Assembly (NCBI RefSeq): GCF_945873775.1
Contig: NZ_CAMCEC010000001.1
Coordinates: forward strand, 1 to 64,000
Direction of reading: 5' to 3'
DNA: 64,000 nt
From: an uncultured Treponema sp.
GTDB lineage: Bacteria > Spirochaetota > Spirochaetia > Treponematales > Treponemataceae
The translations under genes and the position numbers were made by a program. Of the stretch, positions 3,380 through 5,627 are shown one piece after another (within the stretch, counting starts at the first letter, position 1; each line of letters begins with the position of its first letter). Under the pieces are notes generated by a model. It saw only the letters and a program-made list of their open reading frames with translations. It did no database searches and was not told where the DNA came from.

Positions 3380-4762
3380 CTAGTGAACAAGGCCGCCCTT
3401 AAATGTGTTTCCGTTCAGACTGTCTATATGCACTTGCACAAATTTTCCGATTAGAGAAACCGGAGCTTCAAATGCAATGCGCTCGTTCTGCTCTGTCTTG
3501 CCCAAAAGCTCATTGGCGTTGTCGCGGCTTATAATGTCGGCAAGAACCTTTATGTTTTTTCCAACCTGCTTTTCCATCACTTTTCTTGTAATTCCAAGCT
3601 GAATGTCTATGATTTTCTGAAGACGCTCTTTTTTTACTTCAAGCGGAATCTGGTTCTGCATTTTTGCGGCGGGAGTTCCTTCACGCGGATTATAATAGTA
3701 CATAAACGCGCTTTCAAATTCCACTTCCTTCATAAGAGAAGCCGCCTGCTCAAAGTCTTCTTCAGTTTCTCCAGGGAAGCCAAGCATGATGTCCGTTGTA
3801 AGCTGAATTTCCGGAATACGCTCTCGCAGTTTTTGAACAAGCAAAAGATATTGTTCGCGTGTATATTTGCGGTTCATGGCTTTTAAAATTGAATTCGAGC
3901 CGTGCTGAACCGCAATGTGAAGTCCGCGGCAAATGCGCTTTTCTTCCGCAATCACATCTATAAGCTCGTCAGAAAAATCCTTGGGATTGCTTGATTCAAA
4001 CCGAATCCATTCAATAGGAGAATTTGTTTGCTCCAAATGGCGGCAGATTGTTTTTAAAAGGTTCGGAAAATTCATTCCGTCTGCGCCCTTGTAAGAATTC
4101 ACGTTCTGCCCCAAAAGCGTTATTTCCTTTACACCGCGGCGGGCAAGCACATCAAGCTCATGCAGAATCTGTTCCACAGGACGGCTCACTTCCCTGCCGC
4201 GCACATAAGGAACAATGCAGTACGAGCAGAAATTGTTGCAGCCGTGCATAATGGGAACAAAGGTTGAAAACGCGCCTTCCTCATACGAAGTTTCCGCAAA
4301 AACGTAGACAGGCTCTTCGTCAGTCTGTATATATTTCTGGCCTTCCTCAACCGCCTGGATTATCTCTCCGAATTTATTTTTTGCAAATGTGCCCACAACA
4401 TAGTCAACGCAAGGCCATTGCTTTTGAAGCGACTTTAAAAGACGTTCAGCCATGCAGCCCATTACAATCAAAGTAAGAGGAACCGCTCCGTTTTTCTGCA
4501 CATATTCCGCGGCAATTTCCATGTTTCTTTTTTTTGCGTCGGGAGCGCACGAACGCACTTTCTTTAGCCCTGAAAAAAATCCTAGCCGCCCGAATATTCT
4601 TTCTTCTGCGGAACCGCGCACAGAGCAAGTGTTTATTACAACAAGGTCGGCAAGCTGAGCGTTTTCAGCCTTTTTCCAGCCGCGTGAAATTAAAATCTGT
4701 TCAACGGAAGCGCTTTCGGCAATGTTCATCTCACAGCCGTAAGTTTCAAAAAAATAAGTCAT
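3380..4762 (-). CDS. miaB: tRNA-2-methylthio-N6-dimethylallyladenosine synthase MiaB
   Basis: N-terminal TYGCEMN, radical SAM CNNFCSYCIVP, GLHIAVQHGSNSILKAMNRKYTREQY, C-terminal TRAM-like region. Confidence 0.95.
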   Translation of the reverse strand: MTYFFETYGCEMNIAESASVEQILISRGWKKAENAQLADLVVINTCSVRGSAEERIFGRLGFFSGLKKVRSCAPDAKKRNMEIAAEYVQKNGAVPLTLIVMGCMAERLLKSLQKQWPCVDYVVGTFAKNKFGEIIQAVEEGQKYIQTDEEPVYVFAETSYEEGAFSTFVPIMHGCNNFCSYCIVPYVRGREVSRPVEQILHELDVLARRGVKEITLLGQNVNSYKGADGMNFPNLLKTICRHLEQTNSPIEWIRFESSNPKDFSDELIDVIAEEKRICRGLHIAVQHGSNSILKAMNRKYTREQYLLLVQKLRERIPEIQLTTDIMLGFPGETEEDFEQAASLMKEVEFESAFMYYYNPREGTPAAKMQNQIPLEVKKERLQKIIDIQLGITRKVMEKQVGKNIKVLADIISRDNANELLGKTEQNERIAFEAPVSLIGKFVQVHIDSLNGNTFKGGLVH

Positions 4763-4816
4763 CTGCTCATTATAAAGAATAAACTGTCATTGCACAATTG
4801 AAAAAGATTGCATTTC

Positions 4817-5031
4817 CAGGGCAAACGCATTATAAATGTATTCAGCATAAAATTGCCTTTCAGACACGGTTTCCTGGTTCAAAATCGCGCAATAATGCGC
4901 TACACGCTGATTGTTGCAAAGTAACTATAGAATTGTCCGCTCATGCGGTCGCAACAATCAGAGTGTTTTTGCCCCAGAAACCGTTCCTTCGCGCAAACTT
5001 TACTTAAATTATTTATAATGCGTTTGCCCTG
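4817..5031. mobile_element. MITE-like non-autonomous element (215 bp) with 21-bp TIRs and a 10-bp target-site duplication
   Basis: Left TIR CAGGGCAAACGCATTATAAAT (4817-4837) is the exact reverse complement of 5011-5031. Flanked by direct repeats ATTGCATTTC (4807-4816 and 5032-5041). Internal inverted repeat CTGATTGTTGC (4907-4917) / GCAACAATCAG (4951-4961). Confidence 0.88.
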
Positions 5032-5128
5032 ATTGCATTTCTACCAAAGCAAAAATACAACAAAAATATGATTTTTAAGTATAAAAAGTATACAATAAAA
5101 CGGTTTTCATAATATTTTTACAAATTGT

Positions 5129-5157: not shown

Positions 5158-5193
5158 TCGAAGCATAGATTGAAAATAAGGAGGAAATTTCAA

Positions 5194-5553
5194 TTGAAAA
5201 AAATCTTAGCAATGGCAGCCGCAATGGCAATGTTTTCTGCGGCAGTTTTCGCTGATGTGGCTTGCAAAAAGCTCGACAATGGAAAAGTAGAAGTTACATT
5301 CTCATATTCACACCCGAGCGCAAAAAATGTTCTTCTTGCAGGCGACTTTACAAACTGGCAGTCTGGCGCAAAGACAATGAAAAAAGAAGGCGACACTTTT
5401 GTATACAGAAAAGTTGTTTCAGAAAAAAGCGTCCTTACTTACAAGTTCATCATAAACGGAAACTGGATGACAGACAAAAACGCTCCGGCAACAACAGATG
5501 ACGGATTCGGCGGAAAAAACGGTGTTGTAGACGTAAAGACGCTCATAAACTAA
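5194..5553 (+). CDS. Small secreted CBM48 / AMPK-beta-like glycogen-binding domain protein
   Basis: Signal peptide then VLLAGDFTNWQ...GDTFVYRKVV...YKFIINGNWMTD typical of E-set/CBM48. AAGGAGG about 8 nt before TTG at 5194 places the real start inside ORF 5170..5553. Confidence 0.85.
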   Translation: MKKILAMAAAMAMFSAAVFADVACKKLDNGKVEVTFSYSHPSAKNVLLAGDFTNWQSGAKTMKKEGDTFVYRKVVSEKSVLTYKFIINGNWMTDKNAPATTDDGFGGKNGVVDVKTLIN

Positions 5554-5572: not shown

Positions 5573-5627
5573 GATTATCAAACGGGTTTCTTTCAGAAAC
5601 ATCGCAGGGTCAAGCCCGATAATGACA
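5573..5627. repeat. Dispersed 55-bp REP-like repeat, copy A
   Basis: gattatcaaacgggtttctttcagaaacatcgcagggtcaagcccgataatgaca matches the reverse complement of 62019-62073 at 53/55 positions. Confidence 0.85.

Follow-up and report, generated by a model that had tools for sequence, protein, structure and literature searches.

Bacterial REP sequences are short. They are tied to REP-associated tyrosine transposases (PMC2817692). The element described here lies in a 64,000-nucleotide stretch of Treponema DNA, referred to below as the window. It is similar to the REP/BIME repeats, being intergenic, palindromic and sometimes arranged as opposed pairs (here L168, L273, L275, L277 and L287). Unlike REP/BIME, the Treponema element has ISAs1-type ends and a 143-nt branched core.

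The closest precedent is provided by the SPRITE and BOX repeats of Streptococcus pneumoniae (PMC3049150). SPRITE is a MITE-like repeat that resembles a Rho-independent terminator and is enriched near gene 3′ ends and between convergent genes, and its co-option as a terminator was already proposed by its authors (PMC3049150). The core of the Treponema element shares with SPRITE the resemblance to a terminator, the enrichment at gene 3′ ends and convergent sites, and the proposed co-option. SPRITE differs in its simple 18-bp stem and AAAA/TTTT ends, and no target duplication is shown for it, whereas in the Treponema element the RNA is branched with 46 pairs, the transposase family can be named, and duplications, an empty site and retention across species are present. 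BOX and RUP are like the element in being MITEs with ends, duplications and a conserved predicted RNA structure, and differ from it in structure and host; BOX is also modular (PMC3049150). Hence, the co-option of a MITE as a terminator is not a new idea, as SPRITE demonstrates, and for prokaryotic MITEs in general a function as terminator or riboswitch is ‘conceivable’ in the words of a 2024 review (PMC10969869). A catalogue of structured RNA candidates from human microbiomes runs to thousands, some of them in Treponema (PMC8040213). No description of the repeat was found in the literature searched, and an overlap with those candidates is possible. Within this literature the RNA itself, its ISAs1 vehicle and the comparison of copies with and without ends appear to be new. 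Here one module can be compared with and without transposon ends, sometimes within a single genome.

We suggest, with a probability of roughly two in three, that the element is a MITE with ISAs1-type ends that spreads a structured terminator-like RNA, whose role in termination we infer, and that this RNA has been repeatedly domesticated by its hosts. The features of the window copy are collected in Table 1.

Table 1. Layout of the Treponema element and its neighbouring genes, in window coordinates.
Feature	Position	Strand	Remarks
miaB (neighbour)	3380-4762	-	TIGR01574 521.9 bits, cut-off 355.3; start 45 bp from left duplication
Left target-site duplication ATTGCATTTC	4807-4816		single copy at the empty site of relative G084
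Left TIR CAGGGCAAACGCATTATAAAT	4817-4837	+	identical 21-mer in 105 GTDB stretches
Left spacer, TIR to core	4838-4853		gives T-rich stretch after the hairpin on the minus strand
Structured core, model R1, 143 nt	4854-4996	- (inferred RNA strand)	R1 match 138.5 bits; covariation; strand evidence
Core layout (R1)	4854-4996		outer stem, internal loop, variable stem, three-way junction, two hairpins
Small conserved hairpin GCGCAATAATGCGC in core	4887-4900	-	columns 37-50
Main inner stem-loop of core	4902-4966	-	conserved G.A mismatch, internal loop GNAACTAT, terminal hairpin CCGC/GCGG
Right spacer, core to TIR	4997-5010		similar spacers in MITEs from other species
Right TIR	5011-5031	-	exact reverse complement of left TIR
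Right target-site duplication ATTGCATTTC	5032-5041
ORF with glycogen-binding AMPK1_CBM/CBM_48 domain (neighbour)	5170-5553	+	PF16561 1.9e-12, PF02922 3.7e-6; divergent from miaB

The element spans 215 bp (4817-5031), well under the 500 bp usual for a MITE; its 21-bp inverted ends are perfect and a 10-bp duplication flanks it. Its longest ORF is only 69 aa and it holds no transposase gene, so the original prediction of a MITE without its own transposase stands, and the duplications and TIRs lie at exactly the coordinates it gave. No further match to the 21-bp end was found in the window even with three mismatches, nor in any of 100 shuffles. The DNA of the element folds to −60.2 kcal/mol, against a mean of −25.4 for shuffled sequences (z = −10.0, 0/200 shuffles). 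The interior had been described as roughly palindromic. This is true, yet its inner 143 nt also form a conserved branched structure, and what was missed is that they are no arbitrary filler: they are a genus-wide structured module, conserved also without transposon ends. The window copy sits between two gene starts, hence it is not positioned 3′ of a gene. The CBM48-domain gene has a consensus-like promoter about 90 bp downstream of the element, and the copy, lying between this gene and the divergent miaB, probably has little effect. The outward TATAAT in the element ends was considered as a promoter and set aside: the motif is within the end itself, and the possible −35 boxes are poor by eye.

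The genome of the window carries 11 full-length copies of 89–100% identity, plus a 101-bp deletion copy. Exact duplications of 10–12 bp flank 7 of the 11 full-length copies, and in 3 of the 11 they differ by one base. The near relative G084, 94% identical in DNA to the miaB side of the window, has ATTGCATTTC once and no element: its flank reads ...GATTGCATTTC and then TAACAAAGTAAAAAC, the window continuing with TACCAAAGCAAAAATAC after the right duplication, and a separate deletion limits the comparison of the right flank to about 24 bp. That deletion has removed the promoter and the start of the CBM48-domain gene beside the empty site (L223, C30, near 15252). Some copies are common to different species, for example L002 of the window genome and L293 in G249; together with the empty site, they mean that the insertions are of different ages. 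Thus, the proposal that the MITE was moved by a transposase acting in trans gains support from further copies, from autonomous elements with matching ends (L125 and L231, described below) and from the empty site. The copies, ends, duplications and empty site are observed, and mobilisation by an ISAs1-type transposase would account for them.

The exact 21-bp end occurs in 105 stretches of GTDB genomes, with records from Treponema, Bacteroidales, other Bacteroidetes, Verrucomicrobia, Gammaproteobacteria and Dehalococcoidia, and many of these stretches are MITEs of 136–289 bp with 10-bp duplications. Two elements with matching ends hold a transposase. L125 (1,201 bp) has a broken transposase gene that matches NF033564, the model of the ISAs1 family. 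L231 of genome G030 (1,266 bp) encodes an intact transposase of 384 aa between ends within 2 and 1 mismatches; it scores 359.6 bits with NF033564 (cut-off 70) and also matches PF13808 and PF01609. In neither full-length element is a duplication visible any longer. A 439-bp internally deleted derivative of that ISAs1 element, L243, keeps both ends and is the expected intermediate. Since transposases between matching ends score as ISAs1 family, the parent, judged from its sequence, is ISAs1-like and not IS4.

Members of the IS4 family, to which the original prediction had tentatively assigned the element, can have a target duplication of about 10 bp. The duplication observed here would thus also suit an IS4-family MITE, but that assignment is refuted by the curated model, which identifies the transposases between matching ends as ISAs1, and we give it virtually no chance of being right. 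Elements of the ISAs1 family (ISfinder) have target duplications of 8–10 bp and ends of about 14–22 bp, and the MITE copies fit these traits with duplications of mostly 10 bp and ends of 21 bp. No ISAs1 transposase was found in the assembly of the window genome (99.88% complete, 49 contigs). The sole PF01609 transposase of this genome (C13) was examined as a driver and rejected, as it belongs to a different IS without these ends.

The MITE is like the ISAs1 ISs and the MITEs derived from them in its 21-bp ends, in its duplications of about 10 bp and in the deleted intermediate L243. It differs in that its interior is no IS remnant: the core model has no match in L125 or L231. Nor was the core found in the fetched loci of other phyla that bear identical ends. 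Hence, the ends are widespread and the core is restricted to the genus. The Bacteroidales MAG Kf353_bin105 (L056, L057, L076, L085, L108, L114, L124) and Bacteroidetes GWA2_30_7 (L116) carry MITEs of about 145 and 136 bp with identical 21-bp ends and 10-bp duplications, in which the Treponema core is absent. MITEs of several phyla share this one type of ISAs1 end. A variant end, CAGGGCTTCCGCATTATAAA, with three positions exchanged on both ends, is present in the MITEs L205-L207 (G092), L214 and L216; it looks as though the cognate transposase had changed specificity.

The core stands out from the ends already in a genus-wide DNA search, where nucleotides ~59–187 of the element are more conserved (87–93%) than the ends in some species. 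The 143-nt module (window 4854-4996) occurs with or without transposon ends among the fetched copies. A consensus of 46 pairs was obtained from 34 diverse copies, and 35 of the 46 pairs have changes on both sides. The paired fraction of cells is 94.6%, compared with 79.4% in shuffles; double-change cells number 227, against 63 for shuffled alignments and at most 33 for slid structures; the covariation score is 0.42 (0.15 in shuffles). The covariance model R1 built for this RNA is new and absent from Rfam 15, and a permissive search of 13 loci to E = 1 returned no Rfam family for the core, apart from one chance hit. R1 detects the module in 57 of the 98 genomes sampled from the genus. A closer search of seven genomes gave 40 to 71 copies in each. 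Across the phylum, 1 of 138 genera has the module.

The mismatches point to the probable RNA strand. In the outer variable stem, on the plus strand, there are 29 A-C mismatches and 2 G-U; seen from the minus strand, an A-C becomes a G-U pair. Folding is more stable for the minus strand in 121 of 123 distinct copies, the mean difference being ~9–10 kcal/mol; these are related copies, so they are not independent observations. One weak pair, at the foot of the last hairpin, runs the opposite way (13 U-G), and it may not be a true pair. Covariation together with the strand asymmetry shows that the core was selected as RNA and on a single strand, namely the minus strand of the window.

What this RNA does is suggested by where it is found. 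Copies were assigned to end classes against a null of shuffled flanks, giving 48 with ends, 18 decayed, 66 end-less and 10 unclear; those used for context come from a handful of genomes, supplemented with the best match from other genomes and chosen by match score, with genes taken as simple ORF calls. A gene 3′ end is found no more than 70 nt away from 47 of the 66 end-less copies, but from only 13 of the 66 with intact or decayed ends (p = 3.6e-9, which treats related copies as independent and is therefore too small). The end-less copies typically start 20–35 nt from the stop codon. They occupy convergent 3′/3′ sites in 22 of 65 cases (background gaps: 16 of 124; p = 0.001), and copies with ends occupy divergent 5′/5′ sites in 28 of 45, against a background of 38 of 124 (p = 0.0003), both p values being too small since the copies are related. 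In one genome, G004, two copies with intact or decayed ends are located between gene starts, and most of the end-less ones at gene ends. For the orientation of the copies with ends, the left gene presents its 5′ end in 41 of 47 and the right gene in 32 of 46, and a direct test (12 vs 6) is not significant. A stretch of 7 nt with four or more T follows the hairpin on both strands in 55 of the 66 end-less copies, compared with 30% of one-side control windows; in copies with ends the T-tract is mostly on the minus strand only (36/48 vs 12/48).

The anatomy of a hairpin followed by a T-tract is thus observed, and the core most likely acts as an intrinsic transcription terminator. We propose the following mechanism. 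An ISAs1-type transposase acting in trans would cut and paste a non-autonomous MITE with ISAs1-family ends, producing 10-bp target duplications. Between its ends the MITE would carry the 143-nt module, selected as RNA on the window minus strand. This RNA would be an unusually elaborate intrinsic terminator, with a long stable branched hairpin and a GC-rich closing stem, and then a T-tract. Copies with ends would persist where no transcript is cut, mainly ahead of genes. Copies placed immediately after a gene would be useful terminators, in which the core is kept and the transposon ends decay. A terminator-bearing MITE would be purged from within transcripts, which would leave mobile copies upstream of genes and old ones at gene ends.

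The conservation profile points to a somewhat different possibility. Conservation is 86–97% in the internal loops and 90% in GNAACTAT, compared with 67% in the variable stem, and a plain terminator has no need of conserved loops; thus, the core RNA may do something more specific than termination. It could be a specific functional RNA (protein-binding, ribozyme-like or cis-regulatory), which travels with the MITE and is put to use again at gene ends, perhaps in stabilising or processing 3′ ends, with termination as a by-product of position and T-tracts. The branched architecture with covariation, the strand-specific folding and the preference of codirectional copies for the minus strand along genes (41 vs 18, p = 0.004, which kinship makes too small) are in agreement with such a role. 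However, no Rfam match appears even at E = 1 bar the chance hit, and copy positions and T-tracts suit terminators well, so that we consider this role rather unlikely. We consider it doubtful, though slightly less so, that the core is an undescribed sequence-specific structured RNA, protein-binding or acting on its own transcript, with the ISAs1-type MITE as its vehicle. If true, dozens of gene ends across the genus owe one and the same regulatory RNA to repeated seeding by a mobile element.

The terminator reading, which we prefer, implies that hosts keep the core. End-less copies do occupy identical gene junctions in different species. In 11 pairs of shared junctions, one of them formed by MITEs with ends, the core is 85% identical (1326/1563 columns; pairwise range 73–100%), against 61% of other intergenic bases (431/702). 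At these junctions the ends and spacers decay while the core persists. The core might instead be the filler of an ordinary selfish MITE, conserved only via recent master copies, with the gene-end positions reflecting purging elsewhere and no host use. Recent bursts of identical copies in some genomes (G092) would suit this, as would the published argument (PMC3049150) that convergent regions tolerate insertions, so repeats accumulate there. It is already disfavoured by the retention of the end-less core at orthologous junctions while adjoining intergenic bases diverge, by the compensatory changes in 35 of 46 pairs and by the greater conservation of the core than of the ends across species, and we regard it as very improbable.

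On a tree of 142 cores the end state switches at least 13 times if well-supported branches alone are counted, and 20 times if all are; built on 143 columns only, this tree cannot by itself separate loss from gain of ends. The flanks of end-less copies still bear a weak resemblance to those of MITEs (z = 3.6 on the right, 3.2 on the left), which favours loss of ends over gain. Decay of the ends with retention of the core would, from the tree, have occurred many times, and domestication would have proceeded by loss of ends. The opposite order, in which the end-less repeat is ancestral and ISAs1 ends captured the core one or more times, is compatible with the terminator role, and the MITEs of the window genome do group in a single clade that is nested within end-less copies from other species. 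Nevertheless, to explain at least 13 switches, capture would have had to be precise time after time, with the core set between spaced ends and the size constant near 215 bp, and the residual MITE similarity of the end-less flanks also speaks against capture, which we find improbable. The scale of the covariation, strand asymmetry, context and orthologous retention makes the domestication of a mobile element into 3′-end signals directly testable.

Last, two further arrangements were noted. In the opposed core pairs listed at the outset, the cores are ~200–300 bp apart and both RNA strands point outward. A second, unrelated repeat of ~55 bp is located at 5573-5627 of the window, between the CBM48-domain gene and the next, convergent gene; the genome has ~30 copies of it that reach 40 bp or more, along with shorter matches of 20 bp, and the relative G084 has many copies.
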